In this document: positions 30,306-48,848 of the stretch, one piece after another
Layout: each line of letters begins with the position of its first letter
Position numbering within the stretch: the stretch's first letter is position 1
NCBI GenBank assembly: GCA_947502145.1
Contig: CANMYO010000001.1
Span: 1,543,501 to 1,607,500 of the forward strand
Direction of reading: 5' to 3'
DNA: 64,000 nucleotides
From: an uncultured Paracoccaceae bacterium
Lineage (GTDB): Bacteria > Pseudomonadota > Alphaproteobacteria > Rhodobacterales > Rhodobacteraceae
Notes under the pieces: model-generated
Seen by the model: the letters and a program-made list of their open reading frames with translations, nothing else
What the model was told of the DNA's origin: nothing
Database searches by the model: none
Program-made: the position numbers and the translations under genes

Positions 30306-31073
30306 CTAGCGTCTGGTTTCAATTTCAAAGCGTTTGCGGGCGAAGATTTCGTTTTCGTCCGCTTTCTTTTGCCCAAACAGTGACTCTTCAACAAAGGTGA
30401 GATGCGCCTCAACCGCGGCGCGGGCGCCAGCGGGATCACGCGACTGCAAGGCCTCGTTGATATCGCGGTGCTGATCAAGGATCTGGTCGCGGGTCAGGCG
30501 CTGTTTGAACATGACCGACCGGTTGTAGAAAACACCCTCGCGCAGCAGTTCATACATGGAACGCATCATATGCAGCATGATGACGTTGTGGCTTGCCTCG
30601 ATGATGGCAAGGTGAAAGTCCGCGTCAAGATGCGCCTCATCGGCGGGATTTCGTTTCTGGTGCGCAGCTTCCATCTTGGCAAAAACCTCTGCAATCACCG
30701 CAAGGTCGGTATCAGAGGCCACCCGGGCTGCACGTTCCGCGGCCAGACCCTCCATGTCGCGGCGAAAGCTGATGTAGTCAATAACAGCCGCATCATGGGA
30801 CGAAAACAGTTTGACCAATGCCGGGGCGAAGGCGCTGCCCAGAACATCGGCAACAAAGACACCCGCACCGGCCCGTGATGCGAGCAATTCACGGTCCTGC
30901 AAATCTGCAAGCGCTTCGCGCAGGGAAGGGCGCGAGACGCCCATGCGTTCAGAAAGTTCCCGTTCTGAGGGCAGGCGTTCACCCGGGCGCAGGATGCCGC
31001 GCAGAATCAATTCTTCGATCTGGCGCACAACGCCATGGGACAGTTTTTCCTGTGTGACAGGTTCAAATGGCAT
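30306..31073 (-). CDS. GntR/FadR-family regulator, probable glycolate-operon repressor
   Basis: A 255-residue FadR-subfamily regulator. The N-terminal winged helix (residues 10-75) has GERLPSERELSERMGVSRPSLREALADLQDRELL. The C-terminal FCD domain carries the metal-binding pattern with EAHLDADFHLAIIEASHN, and later AAVEAHLTFVEESL. FadR-type proteins such as GlcC, LldR and PdhR sense small carboxylic acids. Its own promoter has a TTGGT-N11-ACCAA dyad over the -10 box, and the same dyad occurs over the -10 box of glcDEF at 48811-48833. That makes it the best candidate regulator of glycolate oxidation here. The neighbouring genes are unrelated. Confidence 0.9.
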   Translation of the reverse strand: MPFEPVTQEKLSHGVVRQIEELILRGILRPGERLPSERELSERMGVSRPSLREALADLQDRELLASRAGAGVFVADVLGSAFAPALVKLFSSHDAAVIDYISFRRDMEGLAAERAARVASDTDLAVIAEVFAKMEAAHQKRNPADEAHLDADFHLAIIEASHNVIMLHMMRSMYELLREGVFYNRSVMFKQRLTRDQILDQHRDINEALQSRDPAGARAAVEAHLTFVEESLFGQKKADENEIFARKRFEIETRR

Positions 31074-31088
31074 GGGTCGTCCTTTGTA

Positions 31089-31125
31089 TTGGTCAAATTA
31101 TATGACCAAGCATAGGAACTCACAA
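31089..31125 (-). promoter_or_regulatory. Promoter and operator of the GntR regulator gene
   Basis: On the minus strand TTGTGA (31120-31125) and TATAAT (31097-31102) are 17 bases apart, a near-consensus sigma-70 promoter. TTGGTCA-N7-TGACCAA (31089-31109), a perfect dyad, is centred on the -10 box, 15 bases before the start codon. Binding there should block RNA polymerase, so the gene is probably autorepressed. Confidence 0.75.
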
Positions 31126-31127
31126 AC

Positions 31128-31156
31128 GAAAAAGGGGCCGCTGCAGCGACCCCTTT
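31128..31156 (-). terminator. Rho-independent terminator of the OmpA-like gene
   Basis: On the minus strand AAAGGGG-TCGCTGCAGCGG-CCCCTTT is followed by further T residues, about 20 bases after the OmpA-like stop. It separates that gene from the GntR promoter immediately beyond. Confidence 0.85.
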
Positions 31157-31174
31157 GATGGCAGATCCAGAAGA

Positions 31175-31828
31175 TCAGCTTGGCGTGATGACCACCTCGA
31201 CGCGGCGGTTCTGCTGACGCCCCTCGGGCGTGAGGTTGGTTGCAACAGGCGCGTCTTCGCCCCGTCCGACAGAGCGGATGCGTGCGGGTGACACACCGGC
31301 GTTGATCAGGATCGACGTCACGGACTGGGCCCGACGTTGGCTGAGGTCAAAGTTGAACGCAGCATCCCCGACGTTGTCGGTATGGCCGATCACGTTGACG
31401 GTGGTATTCGGGTAACGCTGAAGCGAGTTGGCGAGCGTAAAGAGGTTGCTTTGCGCTCCACCGGAGACGGTGGTCGAATTGGTTGCGAACAGAATGTCCT
31501 GCGGCAGCGTGACGGTCAGGTTGTTGCCGTTGTTGACGATGCCAACGTTCCCACCCAGCGCCTGGCGCAACTCTTCTTCCTGTTTGTCAAGATTGGAGCC
31601 GATAGCACCACCAATGCCAGCGCCAAGGGCGGCACCGATCACCGCCTGCTGGCGCCGCTCGCGCTTTGTGTCGCCGGTCGCGGCCCCCAGTAATGCACCA
31701 AGGCCAGCGCCGATGGCAGCACCCTGCCGTGTATTCTGGTTGTCATTTGGGCCACCGGTGCCGGCGCAAGCAGTGGTCAGTGCCAGTGCAGATGCTGCGA
31801 CAATAAGATTGATCCGAGAGAGTGTCAT
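31175..31828 (-). CDS. OmpA-family lipoprotein with glycine-zipper domain
   Basis: A 217-residue envelope protein. The signal peptide ends in a lipobox (ALTTAC, Cys near residue 21), so it is probably an outer-membrane lipoprotein. A glycine zipper (GAAIGAGLGALLGAATG and GAALGAGIGGAIGSNL) occupies residues 36-80. The C-terminal OmpA domain (about residues 105-215) binds peptidoglycan and contains NVIGHTDNVGDAAFNFDLSQRRAQSV, with the conserved Asp and Arg. It likely links outer membrane and cell wall, like YiaD or Pal-type proteins. It is a single-gene transcript. Confidence 0.93.
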   Translation of the reverse strand: MTLSRINLIVAASALALTTACAGTGGPNDNQNTRQGAAIGAGLGALLGAATGDTKRERRQQAVIGAALGAGIGGAIGSNLDKQEEELRQALGGNVGIVNNGNNLTVTLPQDILFATNSTTVSGGAQSNLFTLANSLQRYPNTTVNVIGHTDNVGDAAFNFDLSQRRAQSVTSILINAGVSPARIRSVGRGEDAPVATNLTPEGRQQNRRVEVVITPS

Positions 31829-31949
31829 AAAGAGAGTCCATTCGTAATAGGCGCGGGGTCGCGCGGTTGTTATGGCTTTTATATGACGAAAGGCACCGTG
31901 CTATCCAATAACGCTGAGCCCAATGGCGAAGTTTCGCCGTCCCGAATGG

Positions 31950-32786
31950 TCAGGCGGCTGACTCCGCGCGTGCCGATTCCCAGGCCAGCAACGCCCGTTT
32001 GACCGGAAGGCCCCAGTGATACCGCCCAAGGTCGCCAGATTTGCGCAGAGCACGGTGGCAGGGAATAAGGAATCCAACGGGATTTTTCCCGACGGCCGTG
32101 CCCACAGCGCGCACCGCCTTTGGCTTACCAATGGCCTGCGCGATTTCGGAATAGGTTGTGACCTGACCCGAGGGGATCGAGAGAAGCGCCTCCCACACCT
32201 TGAGCTGGAAGGGCGCGCCGATCATATGCAGGCACGCCTCTCCCTTTGCGGCAAAGGCGGCATCGACCCAAGGCCGCAGCGCCGACGGATTTTCGGTGTA
32301 GGTCGCCTGGGGCCAGCGGGCGGTCAGATCATCCATTGCCGCCTGTTTGCCGTCTTCGGCGGCAAAGGCCAGCCCGCAGATTCCCTTTGACGTACCCATG
32401 ACCAAGGCAGGCCCAAACGGGGTGTCAAACCATCCCCATGAGACCGCGAGCCCCGCGCCCGCACGGGCAAATTCGCCGGGGGTCATGGATTCCCAACGCA
32501 GGAACAGATCATGTAACCGGCCCGATCCTGACAGCCCGACACAATCGGCGGTTTCCAAAGTTGTGAAACGATCCCGCAGCAAAGTCTTGGCGTGGTCCAG
32601 TTGCAAATATTGTTGATAACGTTTCGGGGACACGCCGACCCAAGCGGTAAAGACACGCTGGAAATGTGCCGCGCTCATCTGCATGTCGCGGGCAAGGTCC
32701 GCCAGCGAAACGGGGCCGCTTGCGGCATCAATGGTTTCGATCGCCCTGCGCATGACCTGATAGTGATATGAGTTTTCCTGTTCCAT
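31950..32786 (-). CDS. AraC-type HTH fused to O6-methylguanine-DNA methyltransferase (Ada-like, lacking the zinc domain)
   Basis: A 278-residue fusion. The N-terminal AraC helix-turn-helix is at about residues 10-105 (VSLADLARDMQMSAAHFQRVFTAWVGVSPKRYQQYLQL). The C-terminal methyltransferase has GQVTTYSEIAQAIGKPKAVRAVGTAVGKNP and the acceptor-cysteine motif IPCHRALRKSGDLGRYHWG. It removes methyl from O6-methylguanine by suicide transfer to its Cys. Full Ada proteins also have an N-terminal zinc domain that repairs phosphotriesters and switches on transcription. It is absent here, so methyl-induced regulation cannot work in the standard way. Confidence 0.93.
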   Translation of the reverse strand: MEQENSYHYQVMRRAIETIDAASGPVSLADLARDMQMSAAHFQRVFTAWVGVSPKRYQQYLQLDHAKTLLRDRFTTLETADCVGLSGSGRLHDLFLRWESMTPGEFARAGAGLAVSWGWFDTPFGPALVMGTSKGICGLAFAAEDGKQAAMDDLTARWPQATYTENPSALRPWVDAAFAAKGEACLHMIGAPFQLKVWEALLSIPSGQVTTYSEIAQAIGKPKAVRAVGTAVGKNPVGFLIPCHRALRKSGDLGRYHWGLPVKRALLAWESARAESAA

Positions 32787-32846
32787 GTATCCAACTTAGG
32801 CAGTCAATCCGTTGCAGGCGACCCGATTTTTGCGCATACGGGGTGG

Positions 32847-33491
32847 ATGGCAAAACAGCTTGATTATCACACCATCCGCGAGATCTTTGCCCGCTTTCAA
32901 GCGGCAGAGGCCGAACCCAAGGGCGAACTGGAGCATGTCAACGTCTATACACTGGTCGTGGCGGTCGCCCTGTCGGCGCAGGCGACCGATGCAGGCGTGA
33001 ACAAGGCAACACTGTCCCTGTTTCAGATTGCGGACACGCCCCAGAAAATGCTGGATCTGGGGCTTGAAGGGCTGACAGAGCATATCAAAACCATCGGGCT
33101 GTTTCGTCAGAAGGCCAAGAACGTCATAAAGCTAAGCCAGATTCTGGTGGACGATTATGACGGCGAGGTGCCCAACTCTCGCGCCGCGCTGCAATCGCTG
33201 CCCGGTGTCGGGCGCAAGACGGCCAATGTGGTTCTGAATATGTGGTGGGGGCAACCGGCGCAGGCCGTGGACACCCACATTTTTCGCGTTGGCAATCGGT
33301 CCGGTATTGCGCCCGGCAAGGACGTGAATGCGGTTGAGCGCGCGATCGAGGACCACATTCCCGCAGATTTCCAACTGCACGCGCATCACTGGCTTATCCT
33401 GCATGGGCGCTATACATGCGTCGCCAGAAAACCCAAATGCGCGGCCTGTTTGATCCGCGATCTCTGCGAATTCGAGGACAAGAACTTATGA
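32847..33491 (+). CDS. nth: Endonuclease III
   Basis: A 214-residue bifunctional DNA glycosylase/AP lyase for oxidised pyrimidines. The helix-hairpin-helix LPGVGRKTANVVLN supplies the catalytic Lys, VDTHIFRVGNR the catalytic Asp, and CVARKPKCAACLIRDLC ligates the [4Fe-4S] cluster with the family spacing C-x6-C-x2-C-x5-C. ATG follows GGGGTGG. It overlaps the adenosine kinase gene by 4 bases, so both are on one transcript. Confidence 0.97.
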   Translation: MAKQLDYHTIREIFARFQAAEAEPKGELEHVNVYTLVVAVALSAQATDAGVNKATLSLFQIADTPQKMLDLGLEGLTEHIKTIGLFRQKAKNVIKLSQILVDDYDGEVPNSRAALQSLPGVGRKTANVVLNMWWGQPAQAVDTHIFRVGNRSGIAPGKDVNAVERAIEDHIPADFQLHAHHWLILHGRYTCVARKPKCAACLIRDLCEFEDKNL

Positions 33492-34477
33492 GTAACTACG
33501 ACGTAATCGGGATCGGCAATGCAATCGTCGATGTCATTGCACCAGCGCCTGACACGTTCCTTGATATGATGGGGATCGAAAAGGGCATCATGCAGCTTGT
33601 CGAACGCGATCGCGCCGAGGTGCTTTACGCCGCGATGGACGAACGCACGGAAACCCCCGGCGGGTCGGTGGCCAATACGATTGCCGGCCTGGGCGAATTG
33701 GGACTGCAGACCGCCTTTATCGGCAAGGTCAAGGATGACGCTTTGGGGCGGTTTTATGCCGACGGGCTGCAGAAGGCTGGGACCGATTTTCCCAATCCGC
33801 CAACGGCAAATGCCGTTGCACCGACGTCGCGCAGCATGATCTTTGTTTCACCTGACGGTGAACGGTCGATGAACACCTATCTTGGGGCCGGGGCGGACAT
33901 CAGCAGCGCAGATGTCCCGGTCGAAACCTTTGTTGGCAGCAAGGTGTTGTTCCTGGAAGGGTACCTGTTTGACAAGGACGATGGCAAAACCGCTTTTGCA
34001 GAGGCTGCGCGGCAAATGCGAAAGGCGGGTGGTCGCACGGGGATTACCTTGTCGGATCCCTTCTGTGCTGACCGGCACCGCGCGGATTTCCTGCGGTTGA
34101 TTGCCGAAGAAATGGACTTTGTGCTTGGCAACGCCGCCGAATGGACCACGCTTTATGAAACCGACGATCTGGAAAGCGCGCTGGATCAGGCAGCGGCCGT
34201 TTGCGATACGGTTGTTTGCACCCGTTCCGGCGATCCGGTGATCCTGCGGCAGGGTGAAACGCAGGCCGAGGCACCGGTCGCAAGGGTTGTTCCCGTTGAT
34301 GCCACGGGTGCTGGCGACCAATTCGCAGCCGGGTTCCTGTTTGGCTTTATTACCGGGCGCGACTTGGAAACCTGTGGCCGGATGGGTGTTGCCGCGGCAG
34401 CAGAGGTCATCAGCCACATCGGGCCACGCCCGCAGGAAAGCCTGACCAGGATTTTCAAGCAGGCCGGGCTGATCTGA
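33488..34477 (+). CDS. PfkB-family sugar/nucleoside kinase, adenosine kinase-like
   Basis: A 329-residue ribokinase-fold enzyme. MSNYDVIGIGNAIVDVIA begins the Rossmann-like domain, ETPGGSVANTIAGLGELG is PfkB signature 1, and VVPVDATGAGDQFAAGFLFG is signature 2, with the catalytic Asp in GAGD. Relatives in this group are annotated as adenosine kinases, phosphorylating a nucleoside or sugar with ATP. Substrate choice is inferred. The start at 33488 makes an ATGA overlap with nth. Its 3' end overlaps the convergent gene by 23 bases. Confidence 0.9.
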   Translation: MSNYDVIGIGNAIVDVIAPAPDTFLDMMGIEKGIMQLVERDRAEVLYAAMDERTETPGGSVANTIAGLGELGLQTAFIGKVKDDALGRFYADGLQKAGTDFPNPPTANAVAPTSRSMIFVSPDGERSMNTYLGAGADISSADVPVETFVGSKVLFLEGYLFDKDDGKTAFAEAARQMRKAGGRTGITLSDPFCADRHRADFLRLIAEEMDFVLGNAAEWTTLYETDDLESALDQAAAVCDTVVCTRSGDPVILRQGETQAEAPVARVVPVDATGAGDQFAAGFLFGFITGRDLETCGRMGVAAAAEVISHIGPRPQESLTRIFKQAGLI

Positions 34478-35162
34478 GCCAAAGCGCGTCCAGCGCGTCG
34501 ATCTCGGCGACGTCGAACCGATCCTGTTCCAGCCAATAGCGCCCGGATTGAACGATGTAACCGAGCCGCGTTTCTGCGGCTTGGGCCTGCTCGACCGTCT
34601 TGCGGTCAAATTGTAAGGGCCGCACATCGGGCAATTGGTCCCGATGTACCTTTGGAAACACCAGCCGGCTTTCGCTGTCCGACAGATTGACCATCGCGCA
34701 GCCCTGCAATGCCCCTAAGATCATCAGCCGGGCAGATTTGGCTTCCAGACTGCGTAGCGTCACATCCGCCCGCAGCGGATCAGGATCGCCATTGCCATAG
34801 AAATGGGTCGGTGTGTCATCCGGGTAGACCATATCACAGCCCAGCATCGCGATGACCTTTGGCCTCAGCGCCGCGAGGGTCCAGTACGCGGCGGTAAAGG
34901 CCATGGTTCCACCCGCGTAGACAAAGCCGCCAAAGCGATTTTGCAATGGGACATAGTCATCCGCGGTGATCACCTGTTGCTGCGGCGCGACATTCACCGG
35001 ACGTCGGTCAGGTGAAAAATCCTCTGGGTGAATGAGATAGTCCCAGTCCGGACGTACCGACCATGCATTATTGATCGCGACGATTTTGTCGAGGTTGCCA
35101 CGCTCCCACGTGCGGCAGGTCACGACATTGGGGCCGGACCCAAGGATAAGAACGATTGACAC
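34455..35162 (-). CDS. Hypothetical protein, DUF115/MAF-like
   Basis: A 235-residue protein starting at GTG: SIVLILGSGPNVVTCRTWERG, then IVAINNAWSVRPDWDYLIHPEDF, a middle AGGTMAFTAAYWTLAALRPKVIAMLGCDMVY and a C-terminal half without known motifs. The GSGPN loop followed by IAINNA resembles Rossmann-like DUF115/flagellin-glycosyltransferase (MAF) folds, tentatively. The longer frame to 35222 would start at TTG; the GTG at 35162 has AGGA about 10 bases upstream. It lies next to sulfotransferase and glycosyltransferase genes, so a role in surface-sugar modification is possible. Its function is unproven. Confidence 0.6.
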   Translation of the reverse strand: MSIVLILGSGPNVVTCRTWERGNLDKIVAINNAWSVRPDWDYLIHPEDFSPDRRPVNVAPQQQVITADDYVPLQNRFGGFVYAGGTMAFTAAYWTLAALRPKVIAMLGCDMVYPDDTPTHFYGNGDPDPLRADVTLRSLEAKSARLMILGALQGCAMVNLSDSESRLVFPKVHRDQLPDVRPLQFDRKTVEQAQAAETRLGYIVQSGRYWLEQDRFDVAEIDALDALWLRSARPA

Positions 35163-35230
35163 GCCAGAATGTCCTATTTGGATGAAGTACCGGTAAGTTA
35201 GCGCAGGGATACCAAACGCCAAAACGGCAG

Positions 35231-35635
35231 TTAACGCAGTTCCTTGCGGATCATCAGCTTAAGGCCTGACCAGACATCCGTCACTGCACAGACCTTCACA
35301 TCCACGAGACCCATTGGCAGCGCGACTTCGCGGATCGTGTCCTCGGTGATATCTGTGGGCACTTTTGACGACTTCTTGGGCCAGCTCACCCAAATCATGC
35401 CGTCGCGGTCCATCTGTGTACGGGTGCTGGCCAGAACCTGTTCCAATTCGGCGCGGTGCACGGTGAACAGATGGGTGAATTGCTGGTCCGGCGCAACGGG
35501 TGCCCAGTCTGCGGCGGGTGCGTCAGCAAGCAGGTTGGCGTGATAATCGTCCGGCGGATTGATCACGCAGGCCCGCATGTTTTCCTTCAACCCCAGCTTT
35601 TTCCAAAGCGGGGTGCCGGAATAGCCCGTGGTCAT
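35231..35635 (-). CDS. DUF3052 domain protein
   Basis: A 134-residue protein beginning MTTGYSGTPLWKKLGLKENM, the hallmark of DUF3052. A Rossmann-like beta strand follows (RACVINPPDDY), and IWVSWPKKSSKVPTDITEDTIREVALPMGLVDVKVCAVTDVWSGLKLMIRK fills the second half. It has no cofactor motif, and the family function is unknown. It overlaps the upstream sulfotransferase gene by 4 bases. Confidence 0.85.
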   Translation of the reverse strand: MTTGYSGTPLWKKLGLKENMRACVINPPDDYHANLLADAPAADWAPVAPDQQFTHLFTVHRAELEQVLASTRTQMDRDGMIWVSWPKKSSKVPTDITEDTIREVALPMGLVDVKVCAVTDVWSGLKLMIRKELR

Positions 35636-36492
35636 TCGCCCAGCTTGGCGTGGACTTCGTGCAGGTCGATTTCACCAATCGGCATCTTGTTTGAAGGGTC
35701 GTTGAAGTCGTATTTGAACAGCTGAAAATCTTTCTTGTAGATTTCATAGACAAGATGCATCGACAGATCGTCAAAGTAATCCTCGACCGGATGCAGGCGT
35801 TTTGGCCCATGCCCTTCACTTTCGTTGAAGCGCGGGATCGCGGTCAGATCAACGGCGTGGGGTGTTTCGATCTTGTCGAGCACCTGTTGCATGCCGTCGT
35901 TGAAGCTTTCGGTCCAGAAAATCTTGTCATAGCGGCCACCGTTCACGATGAAAGTGCTGATGTGGCCCGACATGGCGGACCAGTGAATGTCGGGATCCAT
36001 CGGGCGGCGCCAGCGGATGGTATCGCGGGCAAACAGCAGGAACCGGCGAAAGGATTTGATCTGGTCAAATTCAAAGCCGGATTCCGGGTCGCCAACCTCG
36101 ATTCCGTATTTCTGGATCAGCAGGGGTACGAGGTTGCCACGATAACGTCGGCCATTGCGCTGAATGCCGCAAATCTTGTCAAAGAAGGATGAAAGTATGC
36201 GGGTGTAGGGATTACGCACGCAGGTAAAGGCAAAGCTGTTATGCGCCTTAACGTTGGCGGTGATCAGCGGCTGGCTGTCGTCCATCGCCCATTTGTGCAT
36301 GCCGTTTTGCGCGTCGTGGATATCGCCGTCAAAGAACGCGCCGTGGTCGGAATAATACATGATCTGACCGATCGTCGAGCAAGCGCATTTGGGCACCACA
36401 CGGTACACAACACTTTCACTTTCCGTCATCCACGTGCCGGGAAAACCCATGAACAGAAACCTCCGATCCGGGCCGAAAATGGCCCGTGACAA
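35632..36492 (-). CDS. Sulfotransferase family 2 protein
   Basis: A 286-residue protein of the carbohydrate sulfotransferase group (PF03567). VVYRVVPKCACSTIGQIMYY near residue 28 is the PAPS 5'-phosphosulfate loop and AFTCVRNPYTRILSSFFDKICG near residue 88 is the 3'-phosphate motif. ERFNE-like and EGHGPKRLHPVEDYFDD segments occur late, as in related enzymes. No signal peptide is visible, so it acts in the cytoplasm. Sulfation of a polysaccharide precursor is likely given the divergent branch glycosyltransferase gene. It is followed by DUF3052 with a 4-base overlap. Confidence 0.85.
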   Translation of the reverse strand: MSRAIFGPDRRFLFMGFPGTWMTESESVVYRVVPKCACSTIGQIMYYSDHGAFFDGDIHDAQNGMHKWAMDDSQPLITANVKAHNSFAFTCVRNPYTRILSSFFDKICGIQRNGRRYRGNLVPLLIQKYGIEVGDPESGFEFDQIKSFRRFLLFARDTIRWRRPMDPDIHWSAMSGHISTFIVNGGRYDKIFWTESFNDGMQQVLDKIETPHAVDLTAIPRFNESEGHGPKRLHPVEDYFDDLSMHLVYEIYKKDFQLFKYDFNDPSNKMPIGEIDLHEVHAKLGE

Positions 36493-36603
36493 TGCATTCT
36501 TCTATTAGTTGACCCTGTGGCGCAAAGAAAGCCTGTATATTCAACACCTGTTCACGCTATGACGTATAAACAATAGTGGAAGTCGAGCAGGACGTTTTCC
36601 CAT

Positions 36604-38181
36604 ATGGCAAAAATTGCCTTCATATTGCTGTGTCACAAGGACCCTGATGCGATTGTGCAGCAGGCCAAACAATTGACGGCCGTCGGCGACTATATTTCGA
36701 TCCACTTTGACGCGCGCGCTCCGAAAGAGGCATTTGCAAAAATCCAGACCGCGCTTGCCGATAACCCGAATGTCACATTTGCAACCAAACGGATCAAATG
36801 TGGCTGGGGTGAATGGTCGCTGGTGCAGGCGACGCTATATGCGGTGGAGGCAGCTGAAACCGCCTTCCCCCGGGCGACCCATTTTTACATGGTGTCGGGT
36901 GATTGCATGGCGATCAAATCGGCCGCCTATGCGCATGACTTTCTGGATTCGCGTGATGTCGATTATGTCGAATGTTTTGATTATTTTGAAAGCGACTGGA
37001 TCAAAACGGGCATGAAGGAAGAGCGGTTGATATACCGCCATTTCTTTAACGAACGTACCCAGCCGCGCCGCTTTTACGCGAGCTTTCGCGCCCAGCAAAA
37101 ATTGGGCCTGAAACGTGAAGTCCCCAGCGATATTCAGGTAATGATCGGGAGCCAGTGGTGGTGTCTGCGCCGCCGCACGATTGAGTGGATCCTTGAATTC
37201 ACCAAGAAGCGCCGCGACGTGATGCGGTTTTTCCGCACGACCTGGATCCCTGATGAGACGTTTTTTCAAACGCTGGTGCGCCATCTGGTGCCCGCCAAGG
37301 AGATTGACACCCGGACCCTGACGTTTCTGATGTTTACCGATTATGGCATGCCGGTGACGTTCTACAACGATCACTATGATCTGCTGCTCAGCCAGGACGC
37401 GTTGTTTGCGCGCAAGATCAGCGGTGAGGCAACAGAACTGAAGTCACGTCTGGGCAAGCTTTACGCCTCTGGTCGTGAAGATTTCAAGATATCGAACGAA
37501 GGGCGCAGCCTGTTCAAGTTCCTGACCGGGCGGGGTCGGATCGGACGGCGGTTTGCGACCCGGTTCTGGGAGACGGAGACGTCACTGGGCCATGAACGTG
37601 AACTGCTTATTCTGGCCTGCAAGAAATGGCATGTCGCAAAGCGCCTGGTGGGGTCGATTCGTCACCACACCAATATCCCGGCGATTGATTATCTGTTCAA
37701 CGAAGAGGATACGGAGATGCCCGATCTGGGGGGGATCCAATCCAGCTTGGGCAAGCGCACGCGGCACCGGAGGGCCTTGATGCGGATGCTGTTTGATTAT
37801 TATGAAACGGACCGACTGATTATCTGTCTGGACACAGCCAGCATCGACCTGATGCAGGATTTCTTTTCGGATCGATCCGTCACAAAGCTGCTTGAAATTG
37901 AATGCAGCTTTACCGACGAATACCTGGCTGGACATGCGCGGCGGGTTGGTCTGGCCGGTGAACAGACCCCGGATGAGGCGCTGGCACAATTGCTGCCCAC
38001 AATCCGCTATGATGTAATATTTGAAAGCGACCGGATCAGGGATTCAAAATTCCCCAACCATCTGCGCATTCGCGAGACCCGCAGCCCAATTGAAAATGCA
38101 CCGGCGATTGGCGCATTCCTGTCAGTCAATGATGAGACGGCCAAGCAGCTTGCCGAAACCCCATACCTGTTTGTCGACTAA
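36604..38181 (+). CDS. Branch-type beta-1,6-N-acetylglucosaminyltransferase-like protein with DUF5928 C-terminus
   Basis: A 525-residue protein with two parts. The N-terminal half (about residues 1-280) matches GT14 core-2/I-branching enzymes: IAFILLCHKDPDAIVQQ, ISIHFDARAP, CGWGEWSLVQATLYAVEAA, FYMVSGDCMAI and GSQWWCLRRRTIEWI. The C-terminal half (from about 310) contains GHERELLILACKKWHVAKRLV and is of the DUF5928 type. It has no signal peptide. It probably adds branches to a surface polysaccharide. A short gap separates it from the divergent sulfotransferase gene and 9 bases from the HIT gene downstream. Confidence 0.82.
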   Translation: MAKIAFILLCHKDPDAIVQQAKQLTAVGDYISIHFDARAPKEAFAKIQTALADNPNVTFATKRIKCGWGEWSLVQATLYAVEAAETAFPRATHFYMVSGDCMAIKSAAYAHDFLDSRDVDYVECFDYFESDWIKTGMKEERLIYRHFFNERTQPRRFYASFRAQQKLGLKREVPSDIQVMIGSQWWCLRRRTIEWILEFTKKRRDVMRFFRTTWIPDETFFQTLVRHLVPAKEIDTRTLTFLMFTDYGMPVTFYNDHYDLLLSQDALFARKISGEATELKSRLGKLYASGREDFKISNEGRSLFKFLTGRGRIGRRFATRFWETETSLGHERELLILACKKWHVAKRLVGSIRHHTNIPAIDYLFNEEDTEMPDLGGIQSSLGKRTRHRRALMRMLFDYYETDRLIICLDTASIDLMQDFFSDRSVTKLLEIECSFTDEYLAGHARRVGLAGEQTPDEALAQLLPTIRYDVIFESDRIRDSKFPNHLRIRETRSPIENAPAIGAFLSVNDETAKQLAETPYLFVD

Positions 38182-38190
38182 GGAGCAGTC

Positions 38191-38553: not shown

Positions 38554-38591
38554 CCTGTTTGCTGCGCAAAAGCGCCCCACCCGCCGTGCCA

Positions 38592-40407: not shown

Positions 40408-40466
40408 ATCGCGCTGGCAGCACTGTGCTGTTCATGACAAGTTAGGCAAAACGAAAGGGGATCGTC

Positions 40467-43259
40467 ATGACATTTGGAAAAGGCTGTCATCTGCATCTGA
40501 TCGACGGATCTGCGTTCATCTTTCGCGCCTACCACGCCCTGCCCCCGCTGACACGTAAGTCCGACGGGCTGCCCATCGGCGCGGTCAGTGGTTTTGTAAA
40601 CATGTTGCAGCGCTATATCGAGGGCAACAGCGGCCCGGATGCCGCGACCCATGTTGCGGTCATATTCGACAAGGGCAGCCACACCTTTCGCAACGAAATG
40701 TATGATCAATACAAGGCAAATCGTGATGCGATGCCCGAGGATCTGCGCCCACAGATGCCGCTGACACGGGATGCGACGCGGGCGTTCAATATTGCCTGCG
40801 AAGAGATCGAAGGTTTTGAGGCCGACGATATCATTGCAACGCTGGCGCATCAGGCACGTGATGCCGGCGGCCGGGTCACGATCCTGAGTTCGGACAAAGA
40901 CCTGATGCAACTTGTTGGCGGCGGGGTCGAAATGCTTGATCCGATGAAGAACAAGCGCATTGACAGCGACGGCGTTGTCGAAAAATTCGGGGTCGGACCT
41001 GATCGGGTTGTTGATGTGCAGGCACTTGCTGGCGATTCCGTTGACAACGTTCCCGGCGCGCCGGGGATTGGGATCAAGACGGCAGCGCTGTTGATCAACG
41101 AATACGGCGATCTGGAAAGCCTGCTGGACCGGGCTGAGGAAATCAAGCAACCCAAGCGACGTCAGACCCTGATCGAAAATCGGGCGCAAATTGAATTGTC
41201 CAAACGGCTTGTCCAATTGGATTGCGAGATGGAATTGCCGTTTGACCTCGATTCGCTTGAAATTCGCGACCCCGAAGCCGAGACGCTGATGGGGTTTTTG
41301 GCAGAAATGGAGTTTCGCACTGTCACCAAGCGGATCGCCGACAAACTGGGGATCGACCCCCCTGTTATCGAGGTTGCTGCGCCTGAGTCTGAAGTTGCGG
41401 CACCAGAGGAAAACGCCTTTGATCCGGAGGCTTATGAATGTGTGCGTGATGCGGCTGCGCTACAGCTTTGGATCGACCGTATTTACGGTCGTGGGTATGT
41501 CGCAGTCGACACGGAAACCACCAGCCTGAGCGAGATGCGCGCGGAGCTGGTTGGTATTTCATTAAGTGTTGAGCCCGGCCAGGCCTGCTACATCCCCCTG
41601 ACCCACAAGGCCGGTGGCGCGGATGACCTGTTCGGCTCTGACGATCTGGCCGAGGGACAGATGCCATTGGACACCTGTCTGAGCATGCTCAAACCCGTTT
41701 TGGAAGACGATAGCGTCATGAAAATCGGGCAGAACATGAAGTACGATGCCAAGATTTTTGCCCGCCTCGGAATCAATATCGCGCCAATCGACGACACAAT
41801 GCTGATGTCCTACGCAATGCATGGCGGAGAGCATAATCACGGCATGGATCTGTTATCGGAACGCTATCTTGGGCACACGCCGATCCCGATCAAGCCGCTA
41901 TTGGGCACTGGGAAATCGGCAATTACCTTTGATCGTGTGGCGGTCGATGAAGCTGTTAAATATGCAGCCGAGGATGCGGATATTACGCTGCGGCTTTGGC
42001 AGTTGTTCAAGCCCCGGCTGCATGGCCGCAAAGTGACAACGGTCTATGAAACGCTGGAACGGCCACTCGTGCCGGTGCTGGCGCAAATGGAAATGACCGG
42101 GATCAAGGTTGACCGGGATACGCTGTCGCGCATGTCCAATGCCTTCAGTCAGAAGATGGCCGGGTTGGAAGACGAGATACAGGAGCGGGCGGGGCGCAAG
42201 TTCAATGTTGGTTCGCCCAAACAACTTGGCGAAATCCTGTTTGATGAGCTTGAACTGCCTGGCGGGAAGAAGGGCAAGACGGGGGCCTATGGCACCGGCG
42301 CTGATGTGCTTGAGGATCTCGCCACCGAACACGAGCTGCCCGGACTGGTGCTGGATTGGCGGCAGCTGTCGAAATTGAAATCTACCTATACTGATGCGCT
42401 ACAGGAACATATCAATCCTGAAAGCGGTCGGGTTCATACCTCTTATTCTATTGCCGGGGCGAACACCGGGCGGCTTGCCTCGACAGATCCGAATTTGCAG
42501 AACATTCCCGTGCGCACCGAAGAGGGGCGCCGCATCCGGGAGGCGTTTATCGCGGACGAGGGTAAGATGCTGGTGTCGCTGGATTATTCGCAGATCGAGT
42601 TGCGGATTCTGGCGCATGTCGCGGGGATTGACGCGCTCAAGCAGGCCTTTAAGGACGGTGTGGATATTCACGCGCTGACAGCGTCAGAAATGTTTGATGT
42701 GCCGCTGGATGAGATGACTCCGGAGATTCGCCGTCAGGCAAAGGCGATCAATTTTGGCGTGATTTATGGAATCAGCGGGTTTGGGTTGGCCCGCAATCTG
42801 CGCATTCCGAGAAGCGAGGCACAGGGGTTCATCGACCGGTACTTTGAACGGTTCCCCGGCATTCGCACCTATATGGATGACACGGTCGCCTTTGCCAAAG
42901 AGAACGGTTATGTCCAGACGCTATTCGGGCGCAAGATCCACACCCCGGAAATCAACGCCAAGGGCCCCCATGCGGGATTTGCAAAACGGGCCGCGATCAA
43001 TGCGCCGATCCAGGGCACAGCGGCGGATGTGATCCGCAGGGCGATGATCAGAATGCCCCCTGCAATCAACAACTTACCCGCAAAGATGCTATTGCAGGTG
43101 CATGATGAACTTCTGTTTGAAGTTGAAGACGGCGCTGTCGATCAGCTGATCGAGACGGCGCGGGACGTGATGGAAAACGCCAGTGATCCTGCGGTCAAAC
43201 TTGATGTTACGCTGGCGGTGGATGCAGGGCAGGGCGCAAATTGGGCCGAGGCGCATTAG
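40467..43259 (+). CDS. polA: DNA polymerase I
   Basis: A 930-residue repair and primer-removal polymerase with three domains. The 5'-3' exonuclease (residues 1-290) has VIFDKGSHTFRNEMYDQYKANR and the acidic ILSSDKDLMQ. The 3'-5' exonuclease (about 330-540) keeps its catalytic acids (VDTETTSL near 347 and YAAEDADITLRLW near 500), so proofreading looks intact. The polymerase has motif A LDYSQIELRILAHVAG near 705, motif B RRQAKAINFGVIYG near 753 and motif C LLQVHDELLFEV near 875. It is monocistronic or preceded by the Pr6Pr gene. It ends at a hairpin shared with the convergent hsp20 gene. Confidence 0.98.
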   Translation: MTFGKGCHLHLIDGSAFIFRAYHALPPLTRKSDGLPIGAVSGFVNMLQRYIEGNSGPDAATHVAVIFDKGSHTFRNEMYDQYKANRDAMPEDLRPQMPLTRDATRAFNIACEEIEGFEADDIIATLAHQARDAGGRVTILSSDKDLMQLVGGGVEMLDPMKNKRIDSDGVVEKFGVGPDRVVDVQALAGDSVDNVPGAPGIGIKTAALLINEYGDLESLLDRAEEIKQPKRRQTLIENRAQIELSKRLVQLDCEMELPFDLDSLEIRDPEAETLMGFLAEMEFRTVTKRIADKLGIDPPVIEVAAPESEVAAPEENAFDPEAYECVRDAAALQLWIDRIYGRGYVAVDTETTSLSEMRAELVGISLSVEPGQACYIPLTHKAGGADDLFGSDDLAEGQMPLDTCLSMLKPVLEDDSVMKIGQNMKYDAKIFARLGINIAPIDDTMLMSYAMHGGEHNHGMDLLSERYLGHTPIPIKPLLGTGKSAITFDRVAVDEAVKYAAEDADITLRLWQLFKPRLHGRKVTTVYETLERPLVPVLAQMEMTGIKVDRDTLSRMSNAFSQKMAGLEDEIQERAGRKFNVGSPKQLGEILFDELELPGGKKGKTGAYGTGADVLEDLATEHELPGLVLDWRQLSKLKSTYTDALQEHINPESGRVHTSYSIAGANTGRLASTDPNLQNIPVRTEEGRRIREAFIADEGKMLVSLDYSQIELRILAHVAGIDALKQAFKDGVDIHALTASEMFDVPLDEMTPEIRRQAKAINFGVIYGISGFGLARNLRIPRSEAQGFIDRYFERFPGIRTYMDDTVAFAKENGYVQTLFGRKIHTPEINAKGPHAGFAKRAAINAPIQGTAADVIRRAMIRMPPAINNLPAKMLLQVHDELLFEVEDGAVDQLIETARDVMENASDPAVKLDVTLAVDAGQGANWAEAH

Positions 43260-43261
43260 GA

Positions 43262-43287
43262 CGGGGCGGACCATCTGATCCGCCCCG
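43262..43287. terminator. Hairpin between convergent polA and hsp20
   Basis: CGGGGCGGA and TCCGCCCCG form a perfect 9-bp stem with an 8-base loop, 3 bases after the polA stop and 11 bases beyond the hsp20 stop. No long T-run follows either way, so it may serve both genes as a weak bidirectional terminator or stabiliser. Confidence 0.55.
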
Positions 43288-43297
43288 ATGCCGTGGA

Positions 43298-43765
43298 TTA
43301 GTTGACTTTGCTGTCCTCGATAAGGTTCGCATCAGCCGGTTTGGCGGATGTAATCGCGATCTTGCGTGGCTTCAGCGCCTCGGGAATTTCCCGAACCAAA
43401 TCAATATGTAACATGCCGTCGGCGTGGTTGGCGCCGGTCACTTTGACATGGTCAGCAAGGGTGAAGCGACGTTCGAACGCGCGGGTGGCAATGCCGCGGT
43501 GCAGATAGCTGCGCTGGGTGTCGTCTTCGGCCTTTTTGGCGGTGACGATCAAGGCACGTTCCTTCAGCTCAATCGCAAGGTCATTTTCAGAAAACCCGGC
43601 GACAGCGATCGAAATCCGCCAGCCATCGTCTGCTGTTTTCTCAATGTTATAAGGGGGGTAGCTGTTGTTGCCGACATCGCTGGCCAATGCGCGATCCATC
43701 AGATCGGCGATTTGGTCAAAACCAACGGAGGCACGGTAGAGCGGTGTAAGATCAAAAGAGCGCAT
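43298..43765 (-). CDS. Small heat-shock protein, Hsp20/alpha-crystallin (IbpA-like)
   Basis: A 155-residue ATP-independent chaperone that holds unfolding proteins. The N-terminus MRSFDLTPLYRASVGFDQI is typical of IbpA-like proteins. The alpha-crystallin domain includes YNIEKTADDGWRISIAVAGFSENDLAIELKERALIV and IATRAFERRFTLADHVKVTGANHADGMLHIDLVREIPE. The mRNA leader contains a sigma-32-like promoter and two hairpins, the last of which traps the ribosome site as in ROSE thermometers. Thus both transcription and translation should rise with heat. Confidence 0.95.
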   Translation of the reverse strand: MRSFDLTPLYRASVGFDQIADLMDRALASDVGNNSYPPYNIEKTADDGWRISIAVAGFSENDLAIELKERALIVTAKKAEDDTQRSYLHRGIATRAFERRFTLADHVKVTGANHADGMLHIDLVREIPEALKPRKIAITSAKPADANLIEDSKVN

Positions 43766-43771
43766 GTTTGG

Positions 43772-43820
43772 TATCCTTTACAAAGCGATAACATGTTGAA
43801 GCCTTCCCATCAGGGACAGG
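43772..43820 (-). promoter_or_regulatory. ROSE-like RNA thermometer in the hsp20 leader
   Basis: On the minus strand the last hairpin (43772-43790) is TATC-G-CTT-TGTA-AAGGATA: the anti-Shine-Dalgarno UCGCU pairs with AGGA through an unpaired G, the hallmark of ROSE elements. A second hairpin (43802-43820), CCT-G-TCCC-TGAT-GGGA-AGG, also has a single bulged G. The Shine-Dalgarno AAGGA lies 8 bases before the ATG. The fold is read directly; heat melting is inferred from known ROSE elements in alphaproteobacterial small heat-shock genes. Confidence 0.75.
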
Positions 43821-43863
43821 CAGTTTGGTGACGAAACCCATCATTGGCGTTCCGATGTGCATT

Positions 43864-43894
43864 ATTTGGGAAGGTCTGCGCGCGCTTTCAAGGG
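43864..43894 (-). promoter_or_regulatory. RpoH (sigma-32)-type promoter of hsp20
   Basis: On the minus strand CCCTTGAAA (43886-43894) and CCCAAAT (43864-43870) are 15 bases apart, a close match to the heat-shock consensus CTTGAAA / CCCCATNT. The predicted start near 43857 gives a leader of about 92 bases, the usual size for a ROSE leader. Confidence 0.7.
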
Positions 43895-43926
43895 TCTTGA
43901 AAAGATGCCGTCAAAGACAGGAATTT

Positions 43927-44745
43927 TCAGTTATTTCCCGCGGGGCGCACGAATTTGGCACCGGTATCATTCCGCTGCCCAATCTGGATAAGTCGCTGTG
44001 TGCCACCAGGCTTGGCCGGTCCGATGCTGGCAAAATGCGCAAGCAGGGTTTGAAGCGGTTCGTTCAGCGACGTGCCCAAGGATACATCCTGATCACCCAA
44101 GGTTGACATCGCCGAGACCACGGAAACGATCTGTGGCTGGCCGTCCTGCAGTGTAAAGACCGGTGCGCCGCTTGAGCCGGGCTCAACGTCGCAAGTCATT
44201 ATGACAACACCATTTTGTCGCCCCATCACGCTGCAAACTTCCTGCAGGCTGGCCGCATTGGCCCGTTCGCGCCCATAGGACACGATTCCGATTTCATCGC
44301 CGCGTCGGGGGTCTGTGGTGACCGCAAAGGGTTGGACGCGGGTCAGCCGAATGGGGCGGTCAAGCTCTAGCACTGCGATGTCCATCGCCACGCCATCGGC
44401 CTGCGAGGTATTGCCCGTGTAAACAAAATCGGGATGCGCAACCAGGCGGGCAACGCCGCGGCTTGCCTCTGCCCGGCCGCCCCGAAGCCCGGCATTAAAC
44501 AGGAAGGAATCTGCGGGCAATAGACGCCCGTTGCGACCATAGACGCAATGCGCTGCGGTCAGGATCAGGTTCTCTTCGATCAGGGCGGCGGTGCAAAAGC
44601 CGCTACCGTTGATATCAAGACGCCCGACACCTTCCCAACCGCGCGATGCTTCGCCGGTTTCTAGTGATACCAATCCGGTTTCCTGTGCCGTGGCGGGCGC
44701 AGTGATGGCGAGAAATAGTGACGCAATTACAGATAGATAACGCAT
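43927..44745 (-). CDS. Secreted trypsin-like serine protease
   Basis: A 272-residue protein with a Sec signal peptide (MRYLSVIASLFLAITAPATAQ, cleavage after ATA or TAQ). The chymotrypsin-fold catalytic triad is complete: His in LILTAAHCVYG near residue 67, Asp in MDIAVLELDRPI near 122, Ser in CDVEPGSSGAPVF near 196. The short GSSGAP version of the serine motif is common in bacterial V8/trypsin-like enzymes. It lacks PDZ or membrane domains, so it is probably free in the periplasm or outside the cell. Substrates are unknown. It is transcribed toward hsp20 but separated by 161 bases holding the hsp20 promoter. Confidence 0.92.
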   Translation of the reverse strand: MRYLSVIASLFLAITAPATAQETGLVSLETGEASRGWEGVGRLDINGSGFCTAALIEENLILTAAHCVYGRNGRLLPADSFLFNAGLRGGRAEASRGVARLVAHPDFVYTGNTSQADGVAMDIAVLELDRPIRLTRVQPFAVTTDPRRGDEIGIVSYGRERANAASLQEVCSVMGRQNGVVIMTCDVEPGSSGAPVFTLQDGQPQIVSVVSAMSTLGDQDVSLGTSLNEPLQTLLAHFASIGPAKPGGTQRLIQIGQRNDTGAKFVRPAGNN

Positions 44746-44801
44746 GGACGCTCCTGATTTCAGGGCGGACGTTAGCGGCCCGTTAGGGCAATATTAAGGC
44801 A

Positions 44802-46199
44802 TTATCGCAGGATCGGCACTGCGGGTGTGGTATTTTCACCAGACAAGAGTGCGGGCGGAATCGGTCCGCCAGTGGCCCAATCCAGCAGCTCGACCGTGTG
44901 CACAATTGGCACTTGGGTGGCGCTACCGATCTGCATCATGCATCCGATGTTGCCAGCGGCAATAATGTCGGGTGTCAATGCCTCTAACGTGTTGACCTTG
45001 CGGGTTTTTAGCTGCCTGGAAATTTCGGGCTGCATCAGGTTATAGGTCCCGGCTGACCCACAGCACAGATGGCTGTCGGCGGGTTCGAGCACGGTGAATC
45101 CGGCGCGTTTCAACAGCTCTTTCGGGGCCGATTTGATTTGCTGGCCATGTTGCAGCGAACAGGCGGCGTGATACGCAACGCGCGGTCCCCCACCGTGCGG
45201 TGATTTTGCGTCATGCACATCCCGCCAACTTTCCGGCAACAACCCATGCATATCAAATTCTGAACGCGGCTTAACCATGTCTTGGTTAAGCAAATCCAAA
45301 AGCACCTCGGAAACATCCTTGGCGATGCTTGATACCCGCGCCGCGTCGTCGGCCAGCGGATCGTTTTGGAACATGTGGCCGTAGTCCTTGACTGTCGTGC
45401 CGCAGCCAGAGGTGTTGATCACGATCGCATCCAGACCACCCGCGTCCATTTCGGCGGCCCAGGCGCGGATGTTGTGGGCTGCGGTTGCGTGACTTTGGCT
45501 TTCCTTGCCCATGTGGTGGGTCAGCGCGCCGCAGCAACCGGCCCCTTTGGCGACGACAACCTCTGCCCCAAGCCGGGTCAGCAACCGAATCGTGGCGTCG
45601 TTGATATCGGTATTCAGCGCCTTCTGGGCACAGCCGGTCATCAGCGCCACGCGGAGTTTCCTTGTTGCCGCCGGGAATGTCTGGGGATCGTCATTGCGGC
45701 TGACCGGCGGGATCACCTTGGGGGCCATTTCCAACATCGCCCGCAGGCGCGGGTCGGGCAGGAAACGGGCGAAGGGACGGCCGATCTTTGCGCCAAGCAG
45801 CGCAAGCCGGAATCGCGTCGGGTACGGCAGGATCTGCGCCAGAATCCAGCGTAGGGCGCGGTCGCCAAGGGGACGGTTGTAGTTCTGTTCGATATAGCTG
45901 CGGGCGTGATCGACAAGGTGCATGTAGTGCACGCCCGATGGGCAGGTTGTCATACAGGCAAGGCAAGACAGGCACCGGTCGATGTGCTTGACAGTTTTGG
46001 CGTCCGGCACCCGTTCGTTTTCCAGCATGTCCTTGATCAGGTAGATGCGCCCGCGCGGGCTATCCAGTTCATCACCCAGCACCTGATAGGTTGGGCATGT
46101 CGCGGTGCAGAACCCGCAATGCACACAGGCGCGCAGAATGTCGTTGGCGCGCTGGGTGCCGGGGTCTTCCAGTTGGGCGGGGGTAAAGTGCGTTTGCAT
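44802..46199 (-). CDS. glcF: Glycolate oxidase iron-sulfur subunit
   Basis: A 465-residue electron-transfer subunit. Two [4Fe-4S] motifs, CVHCGFCTATCP (near residue 26) and CLSCLACMTTCPSGVHYMHL (near residue 78), are followed by two CCG domains: GCAQKALN...GCCGALTHHMGKE and HAACSLQHGQQ...HLCCGSAGTYNLMQPE. It carries electrons from GlcD to the respiratory chain at the membrane. It is the last gene of glcDEF and joins glcE at a TAATG overlap. Confidence 0.96.
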   Translation of the reverse strand: MQTHFTPAQLEDPGTQRANDILRACVHCGFCTATCPTYQVLGDELDSPRGRIYLIKDMLENERVPDAKTVKHIDRCLSCLACMTTCPSGVHYMHLVDHARSYIEQNYNRPLGDRALRWILAQILPYPTRFRLALLGAKIGRPFARFLPDPRLRAMLEMAPKVIPPVSRNDDPQTFPAATRKLRVALMTGCAQKALNTDINDATIRLLTRLGAEVVVAKGAGCCGALTHHMGKESQSHATAAHNIRAWAAEMDAGGLDAIVINTSGCGTTVKDYGHMFQNDPLADDAARVSSIAKDVSEVLLDLLNQDMVKPRSEFDMHGLLPESWRDVHDAKSPHGGGPRVAYHAACSLQHGQQIKSAPKELLKRAGFTVLEPADSHLCCGSAGTYNLMQPEISRQLKTRKVNTLEALTPDIIAAGNIGCMMQIGSATQVPIVHTVELLDWATGGPIPPALLSGENTTPAVPILR

Positions 46200-47338
46200 T
46201 AGTTCATCAGCCCCGGATTGAGGATGTTGCGCGGATCAAACCGCTGGCGCAGACCGGCATTGAGGGTGGCGATCGCTGCGGGTTCGGGATGAAACCGCGG
46301 CAGGTCAGCGCTGCTGCGGATCAGGGTGGCATGGCCCGGTGTGTCGCCCATTGCGCCGCGCAGGTCATACCCCGGCGGTGTCAGCGCCCAGATCAACCCG
46401 CCGCCCCAGTCATATTGCACGGCCCGGGTCTCTAGCCGGGTTACAAGGGCTGCGGCATCAGAGGGTTTGACCGAAAGCCGCCAGATGTCACCGTCAGCCT
46501 GTGCCAGGCCAAGAACGTCGCGGACGTGCGTCCAGCCGCGATCCGTGCTGTAGGGCGTGTCGGTCTGATCAGAGAATTGCAGCACCGGTTTGCCGTGATC
46601 CGCCAGTTTTGCAGTTAATTGTTCTGCCCGATATCGCACGGATTTGGCAAAACCTTCGATGCGGATCATGGTGACAGGCTGCCCGTCGATACCGGGGGCA
46701 AGATGGGCGGCGCCGGTCACCTCAAACGGGGAACCCAAGGCCGCGGACATGGCCGCAATCGCTTGCGCATCGCTGAGCCCTTCGAATAGCAGGACGCCGG
46801 TGCATGCGACGTCTGGCAGAACTTTCAGGGCGACCTCGGTCAGGACACCAAGCGTGCCGTGTGACCCGGTCATGAGCTTGGCAAGGTCATAGCCGGTGAC
46901 GTTCTTCATGACCCGGCCGCCGTTCTTGATGATCGTGCCGTTGCCGTCGACAAACCGCACGCCCAGCACAAAGTCACGACAGGCCCCGACAGCGACACGG
47001 CGGGGCCCCGAGACATTGGCCGCGACCACCCCGCCAAGCGTTGGTTCGCCTTGTGTGCCCAGCAGACCGCGGTGGTCCATCGGTTCAAACGCAAGGCGCT
47101 GGTTTTCGGCGGCGAGCGCCTTTTCGATCTCGGCAACGGGCGTGCCAGCCTTGGCGACAATCGTCAACGCGCCGGGATCATAAAGCGTGATGCCCGACAG
47201 GCCGCTCGTGCAAAGCGTATCACCATCAGGTGCGGGCTGCAGGTGCCGGGTGCCGCCGCCTTGGATACGCAGGGGTGACGTCGCGTCGCGAATGGCGGTG
47301 GCGAGCGCGTCTTCTGTATCGGGGATCATCATGGTCAT
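46199..47338 (-). CDS. glcE: Glycolate oxidase FAD-binding subunit
   Basis: A 379-residue FAD_binding_4 protein: LRIQGGGTRHLQPAPDG near the start, FEPMDHRGLLGTQGEPTLGGVVAANVSGPRRVAVGACRDFVLGVRFV at the flavin pocket, and GGRVMKNVTGYDLAKLMTGSHGTLGVLTEVALKVLP. It is shorter than GlcD and lacks its C-terminal substrate domain, as usual for GlcE. Start ambiguity is small: GTG at 47341 or ATG at 47338 or 47329. It sits between glcD and glcF, all in one operon. Confidence 0.95.
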   Translation of the reverse strand: MTMMIPDTEDALATAIRDATSPLRIQGGGTRHLQPAPDGDTLCTSGLSGITLYDPGALTIVAKAGTPVAEIEKALAAENQRLAFEPMDHRGLLGTQGEPTLGGVVAANVSGPRRVAVGACRDFVLGVRFVDGNGTIIKNGGRVMKNVTGYDLAKLMTGSHGTLGVLTEVALKVLPDVACTGVLLFEGLSDAQAIAAMSAALGSPFEVTGAAHLAPGIDGQPVTMIRIEGFAKSVRYRAEQLTAKLADHGKPVLQFSDQTDTPYSTDRGWTHVRDVLGLAQADGDIWRLSVKPSDAAALVTRLETRAVQYDWGGGLIWALTPPGYDLRGAMGDTPGHATLIRSSADLPRFHPEPAAIATLNAGLRQRFDPRNILNPGLMN

Positions 47339-47351
47339 CACATCACTTGGA

Positions 47352-48788
47352 TCACGCGGCGTCGCGCCGGGTGGCGCTGGCGGCGAGCGGAAAGACTTTG
47401 GCCGGGTTCAGCAGCCATTTGGGATCAAAGACGTCTTTGACATGCATCTGTGCCTCAAGATCGGCATCGTTGAATTGCACTGTCATCAGGTCGCGCTTTT
47501 CAATGCCGACGCCGTGTTCGCCGGTCAGACATCCGCCCACTTCAACACAGAGTTTGAGGATCTCCGCGCCAAGGGCTTCGCAGGTTTCCAGATCACCGGG
47601 CTTGTTGGCGTCAAACAGGATCAGCGGGTGCATGTTGCCATCGCCGGCGTGAAATACGTTGCCCACCCGCAGGCCAAACTCTGCCGCGAGTTCTTCGATC
47701 CGGCGCAGCACGAATGGCAGTTCAGAGACTGGGATCGTGCCATCAAGGCACATGTAGTCGTTAATTTGCCCCATTGCGCCAAAGGCGGATTTGCGACCCA
47801 GCCAGATGCGGGCGGCCTCATCTGCATCACGGGCCTCGCGCAATTCAAGCGGGTTATGCCGCTGGGCGATGTCCTTGATCAGGGCAAGCTGTTCGTCGAT
47901 TTCGGCTTCGGCGCCTTCAACTTCGACAATCAGCAGCGCCTCGCACATCGGATATCCGGCATGGGCAAAGGCTTCGCAGGCTTCGATGCAGGGGCGGTCC
48001 ATGAATTCGATCGCAACGGGCAGGATGCCGGCCTTGATGATGTCGGACACGCAGGCGCCCGCCACTTCGTTTGAGTCAAAGGCCATCAGCACCGGGCGCG
48101 CGCCCTCGGGCTTGTGCAGGATTCGCAGGGTCGCTTCTGTCACGACACCCAGTTGCCCCTCGGACCCACAGATGACCCCAAGAAGATCATAGCCAGCCGC
48201 ATCCAGGTGACCGCCGCCGATTTCGACAACCGTGCCGTCCATCATCACCATGGTCACGCCCAGCAAGTTGTTGGTCGTCACCCCATATTTGAGGCAATGG
48301 GCCCCGCCTGAGTTCATCGCGATATTCCCGGCAATCGCGCAGGCCAGCTGGCTGGAGGGATCGGGGGCGTAAAAGAATCCATCCTGTTCCACTGCGCCGG
48401 TGACGGACAGGTTGGTGCGTCCCGATTGCACCCGGATCAAGCGATTTGGATAGTCGGTTTCCAGTACCGCATTCAGTCGCGCCACCCCGAGGATCACGCA
48501 ATCCGCGGTGGGCATGGCCCCCCCGGCGAGCGACGTGCCCGCGCCCCGTGGCACAACCGGGACATTCATCTGGTGGCAAATGCGCAAGACGTCCGCGACC
48601 TCTTGTGTGCTGGTGGGCAACACGGCGAGAAGGGGCGGACATTTATAAGCGGCCAGGCCATCACATTCGTAGGCGCGGGTTTCGGCCGGGTCGGAAATGA
48701 TTGCATCCTGCGGCAGCACCTCGGCCAGGCGCGCGACCAGCGCTGCCTTGTGGTCGATGATGGCGGCGTCGGGCGTTGGCATTTCCAT
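47352..48788 (-). CDS. glcD: Glycolate oxidase catalytic subunit
   Basis: A 478-residue flavoprotein of the FAD_binding_4/FAD-oxidase_C class that oxidises glycolate to glyoxylate. VVPRGAGTSLAGGAMPTADCVILGVARLN and GLFYAPDPSS-like text (FFYAPDPSSQLACAIAGNIAMNSGGAHCLKYG) form the flavin site. GNVFHAGDGNMHPLILFD and GEHGVGIEKRDLM carry the catalytic histidines. The frame opens at 48893, but the ATG at 48788 follows GGAGGAAT and matches the family. The promoter upstream carries the GntR-type dyad. Confidence 0.96.
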   Translation of the reverse strand: MEMPTPDAAIIDHKAALVARLAEVLPQDAIISDPAETRAYECDGLAAYKCPPLLAVLPTSTQEVADVLRICHQMNVPVVPRGAGTSLAGGAMPTADCVILGVARLNAVLETDYPNRLIRVQSGRTNLSVTGAVEQDGFFYAPDPSSQLACAIAGNIAMNSGGAHCLKYGVTTNNLLGVTMVMMDGTVVEIGGGHLDAAGYDLLGVICGSEGQLGVVTEATLRILHKPEGARPVLMAFDSNEVAGACVSDIIKAGILPVAIEFMDRPCIEACEAFAHAGYPMCEALLIVEVEGAEAEIDEQLALIKDIAQRHNPLELREARDADEAARIWLGRKSAFGAMGQINDYMCLDGTIPVSELPFVLRRIEELAAEFGLRVGNVFHAGDGNMHPLILFDANKPGDLETCEALGAEILKLCVEVGGCLTGEHGVGIEKRDLMTVQFNDADLEAQMHVKDVFDPKWLLNPAKVFPLAASATRRDAA

Positions 48789-48810
48789 GGCGATTCCTCC
48801 GCAGAACTGA

Positions 48811-48848
48811 ATTGGTAAAAATATATTACCAATTTTGCCGGATGGCAA
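48811..48848 (-). promoter_or_regulatory. Promoter and operator of glcDEF
   Basis: On the minus strand TTGCCA (48843-48848) and TATATT (48820-48825) are 17 bases apart. The perfect dyad ATTGGTAA-N7-TTACCAAT (48811-48833) is centred on that -10 box, 22 bases before glcD. Its 21-base core differs at only 3 positions from the dyad over the -10 box of the GntR gene at 31089-31109. Repression by that regulator, lifted by glycolate or a related acid, is the simplest reading. Confidence 0.75.

Follow-up and report, generated by a model that had tools for sequence, protein, structure and literature searches.

The window, a stretch of 64,000 nucleotides of DNA from an uncultured Paracoccaceae bacterium, carries a gene for a GntR-type regulator and, 17 kb away on the same minus strand, the glycolate oxidase genes glcDEF. 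The features of interest are given below by their positions in the window.

30306..31073, minus strand: GntR regulator with FCD domain (FadR subfamily), 255 aa, PdhR/LldR/GlcC-like (Pfam GntR 1.2e-19, FCD 2.4e-24)
31089..31109, minus strand: predicted operator of the regulator promoter, TTGGTCA-N7-TGACCAA (sequence match)
31097..31125, minus strand: putative regulator promoter, TTGTGA-17-TATAAT, -10 within the operator (consensus match alone)
44802..46199, minus strand: glcF, glycolate oxidase iron-sulfur subunit (Pfam CCG and 4Fe-4S domains)
46199..47341, minus strand: glcE, glycolate oxidase FAD-binding subunit (Pfam FAD_binding_4; position after glcD)
47352..48788, minus strand: glcD, glycolate oxidase FAD subunit (two NCBIfam GlcD models, at 2.3e-162 and 3.3e-135, each scoring below its cut-off; Pfam)
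48811..48833, minus strand: predicted glcDEF operator, ATTGGTAA-N7-TTACCAAT (sequence match)
48820..48848, minus strand: putative glcDEF promoter, TTGCCA-17-TATATT, -10 within the operator (consensus match alone)

The start of glcD was set at the ATG common to its homologs, and in relatives the glcE homologs adjoin glcD. The linkage between the regulator gene and glcD varies among the 29 genomes that have both, with 17–45 kb between them on one contig in 13, 753 kb in one (G014), and the two genes on separate contigs in the other 15.

The regulator and the two dyads

The regulator has the N-terminal GntR winged helix and the C-terminal FCD domain of the FadR (FCD) subfamily of the GntR superfamily, and is below the cut-off of all three of the curated NCBIfam equivalog models that match it best, which are PdhR (193 against 330 bits), LldR (170 against 311), and GlcC (153 against 301). 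The C-terminal domain of E. coli PdhR, the nearest of these models, also matches the predicted structure, which is of moderate confidence overall (mean pLDDT 78.1) and has a helical, PdhR-like C-terminal domain (TM 0.91 by target length against 5tpm, the PdhR C-terminal domain). PDB and fold searches returned matches at the level of the family only. Asp150, His154, His202, and His224, which we take to be FCD metal ligands, are invariant among 27 orthologs. The nearest named relatives include Yoonia and Loktanella (Rhodobacterales), and no description of this regulator was found in the open-access literature.

In the regulator tree the orthologs form one clade (98/91), while GlcR of Paracoccus denitrificans (Pden_4400) and an Agrobacterium relative are on a separate branch (99/97); the E. 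coli members have long branches and their placement is unsure. The tree and the identity of 39.7% exclude that the regulator is GlcR itself.

It had been claimed in the preliminary description that near-identical dyads lie over the -10 boxes of both promoters, each with a 17-base spacing between -35 and -10. Indeed the positions are reproduced, direct comparison finds three differing positions in the 21-base cores, and the spacing agrees with the consensus matches. The extended dyad TTGGTNA-N7-TNACCAA is present twice in the window and in none of 100 dinucleotide shuffles, whereas the looser core, with up to two mismatches, is no commoner there than expected (17 observed, 21.4 expected). Nor were many unrelated copies seen when the proposed search of the whole genome for TTGGT-N11-ACCAA was run, which found this bare core at nine places, against one for the reversed control. 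Three of these are at promoters, those of the regulator gene, glcD, and lldD, and the remaining six are inside listed ORFs of at least 120 aa, although for two of the six (L004, L009) the listed ORF is possibly not the real gene. In this genome the glcD-type pattern TTGGTNATANNNNNTNACCAA matches the regulator, glcD, and lldD sites only.

A strong terminator-like hairpin of 11 pairs (31131–31156, minus strand) ends directly 5' of the regulator -35, and a GGCCCCTTT-like stretch is present at this position in several of the compared upstream regions.

Conservation and co-occurrence of operator and regulator

Orthologs of the regulator are present in 30 of 61 genomes (the genome studied here and 60 others), every one of them in the family of the window. 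Some of the genomes used for comparison are incomplete. With up to two core mismatches allowed, the glcD dyad was found at 27 of the 30 loci read, with all three misses in genomes lacking the regulator, and after two more genomes were added it was present at the glcD promoter in all 29 regulator-bearing genomes read. Dyad-like sites are present at glcD in 5 of 37 regulator-lacking genomes, one of seven in the first set and four of 30 in a later set, the latter being the upstream regions read from the 45 genomes with glcD among 57 further genomes. Upstream of glcD at L239, L240, L243, and L254, in genomes lacking the regulator, there are imperfect N11 dyads; these are possibly remnants that have outlasted the loss of the regulator.

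The putative autoregulatory site is conserved too, being found with up to two core mismatches upstream of 76 of the 80 named orthologs (the best 80 of 209 relatives) and placed 33–48 bp before the start in 74 of the 80. At the regulator loci, 22 of 30 have such a site within 150 bp, and of the eight that lack it, one (L039) is a fragment with the start missing. The reversed-sequence control gave, by the loose criterion, 4 of 30 regulator upstream regions, 6 of 30 for glcD, and none of 44 for glcB and lldD together.

Among 248 genomes of the family, taken one per genus and with the regulator called at E up to 1e-70, the exact glcD-type dyad is present in 139 of the 184 with the regulator and in none of the 64 without it (139, 45, 0, 64; Fisher 5e-30, with the genomes treated as independent of kinship). 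Of the 45 regulator-bearing genomes without the strict pattern, six were checked at glcD: five have a looser dyad, and the sixth (G016) lacks a close glcD. A tree of glcD with 68 rows has 16 changes of regulator state, at least six of them forced by supported branches, with the bootstrap unsettled; the six well-supported independent pairs that it offers include, on average, 4.9 with the dyad tracking the regulator and none with the opposite pattern, a result that is not significant alone (median p 0.0625).

A different FadR-type paralog might bind the dyad, which would make the regulator gene merely one of its targets. This genome does have 13 matches to the regulator as query, the regulator itself included, and dyad-like sites occur without the regulator at glcD in the five genomes noted above (one of which is G019) and at glcB in one. 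Such a paralog is nevertheless improbable, given that the exact operator is in none of the 64 sampled family genomes without an ortholog and that all but four of the 80 orthologs carry the dyad at their own promoters.

The unenriched loose core in the window, and the location of six of the nine genome-wide core matches inside ORFs, might be taken to mean that the two dyads resemble each other by chance. The odds of this are negligible, since chance resemblance is ruled out by the shuffles, by conservation and co-occurrence with the regulator, and by the scan of spacings described below. A single regulon with a common operator, as the preliminary description had predicted, is strongly supported by the conservation of the sequence at both promoters together with the co-occurrence of operator and regulator.

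Further targets and the predicted mode of control

The scope proposed in the preliminary description, which covered the regulator and glcDEF, was too narrow, although the shared operator on which it was based stands; lldD is to be added and, in many relatives, glcB. The lldD gene of this genome, which encodes an FMN L-lactate dehydrogenase (above the cut-off of the NCBIfam subfamily model; Pfam FMN_dh), has the third operator site 33 bp before its start. In a search of 37 genomes, 23 of them within the family, the dyad is present at lldD in 16 of the 18 close homologs that come from genomes with the regulator and in neither of two without it, leaving out two distant paralogs without a site (L171, L172). 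In the same genomes it is present at glcB, for malate synthase G, in 13 of the 19 cases where the regulator is present, the weak match of the genome studied here being counted, and in one of three without, this being the one-mismatch dyad of G022. In this genome itself glcB was rejected as a target, its best match, CTGATCACAAATGCGGACCAA, being weak and at -45, compared with -81 to -102 wherever else glcB has a site in a regulator-bearing genome.

Twenty further operator-like places were chosen among the matches listed, as ones then unexplained, and ten of these are upstream of a fitting gene: lldD in six cases, a TRAP binding-protein gene in two, and glcB and another FMN hydroxyacid dehydrogenase in one each. 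The other ten have no fitting gene, and at least six of them appear from the ORFs to be inside genes. In G016, which has the regulator, a distant FMN hydroxyacid dehydrogenase carries the operator (L199 1501–1523). The TRAP transporter was rejected as a core target: a relative is present in nine genomes, one with the gene at a contig end (G019), and the eight readable upstream regions include a clear dyad in two (G029, G031) and a weak one in another (G036). The binding-protein gene with the clear site in two genomes has the Pfam domain DctP.

We infer with considerable confidence that the GntR/FCD protein binds the dyads, represses itself and glcDEF, also controls lldD, and is freed by a 2-hydroxy acid. 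The product of 30306–31073 would bind ATTGGTNA-N7-TNACCAAT and, lying over the -10 boxes, would block its own promoter and that of glcDEF; lldD in the same genome would be under the regulator too, and so, in relatives, would glcB in many cases and a TRAP transporter in a few. Release would follow when a small 2-hydroxy acid binds the FCD domain; this acid may be glycolate, L-lactate, or both, or possibly glyoxylate or pyruvate, and glycolate and lactate oxidation would then rise jointly. Autorepression and the induction of glycolate oxidation, in particular, are predicted from the position of the operators and from the example of GlcR in P. denitrificans.

The regulator might instead be an activator, as E. 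coli GlcC (PMC11323563) and LldR (PMC10272880) are described to be for the glc genes. This seems very unlikely, because the dyads contain the -10 box, where a bound protein would be expected to block the polymerase, and because repression of glcDEF, with release by glycolate, has been shown for the related GlcR (PMC11323563). The regulator is accordingly predicted to work like GlcR, by repression and its relief by a 2-hydroxy acid, while not being GlcR. Both are GntR/FCD regulators of glcDEF, but they are about 40% identical and in separate clades, and the GlcR gene adjoins glcDEF rather than lying 17 kb off; the regulon described here, unlike that of GlcR, would include lldD and, in relatives, glcB as well.

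Roseobacter-type bacteria are among the marine consumers of glycolate. According to PMC11323563, algae release glycolate in very large amounts and bacteria consume it. The predicted regulon links the oxidation of glycolate with that of lactate, apparently placing two common food acids under one switch. E. coli LldR, 34% identical to the regulator, likewise reaches the metabolic set made up of glycolate oxidase, malate synthase, and L-lactate dehydrogenase, controlling the lactate genes and the glc operon including glcB through an N3 box of 17 bp, AAnTGGTCnGACCAnTT (PMC10272880). E. coli GlcC, the glcDEF regulator of the same subfamily, is 33% identical to the regulator, and its gene adjoins glcDEF. 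LldR regulons are given for 13 taxonomic groups and GlcC regulons for seven in PMC5343134.

Spacing of the half-sites

The unexpected feature is the spacing, which was overlooked in the preliminary description: GT and AC are 11 bases apart instead of the usual two to three. The typical, though not universal, operator of FadR-type regulators is given as TKGT-N3-ACMA, with N2 in several groups (PMC4494728). The sites described here have the same half-sites, but as GT-N11-AC and not in the N3 arrangement; E. coli PdhR, for instance, has the N3 dyad AATTGGTAAGACCAATT before pdhR. No description of N11 spacing for FadR-type operators was found in the open-access literature.

When spacings of 1–17 were scanned in the 80 ortholog promoters, allowing up to one mismatch, there were 57 at N11 and no more than four at any other. 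For x from 1 to 16, TGGT-Nx-ACCA is found near 14 loci of related regulators ten times at N11, never at N3, and at most five times at any other spacing. Some of these ten are duplicates or gene-internal, and by our reading there are five independent intergenic cases, which are Paracoccus glcDEF, a P. denitrificans GntR gene (the P. zhejiangensis relative of which adjoins dld), Leisingera, an Agrobacterium hydroxyacid oxidase, and Sinorhizobium glcD. In P. denitrificans HAMBI 2443, such a TGGT-N11-ACCA dyad is between glcD and a glcR-like gene, recognised by its position and similarity. The GlcR binding site is not named in the parts of PMC11323563 consulted, and the predicted operator for this studied regulator is TGGTCTGAAAATTATACCA at Pglc.

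On balance these counts tip slightly towards an alphaproteobacterial clade of FadR-type regulators, including both this regulator and GlcR, that would read TGGT/ACCA half-sites at GT-N11-AC, not GT-N3-AC, with a dimer geometry unlike that of FadR and PdhR. As N11 is 8 bp beyond N3, which is not a full helical turn, the dimer would have to hold its DNA-binding domains apart, unlike FadR or PdhR, and this raises the structural question of how a FadR-type dimer spans N11.

Outside the family, G051 has an N3-type site, TTGGTAATACCAC, 31 bp before glcD (L077). On plasmids of Paracoccus tegillarcae and P. yeei (L271, L272), a related GntR gene is near pyruvate dehydrogenase genes.
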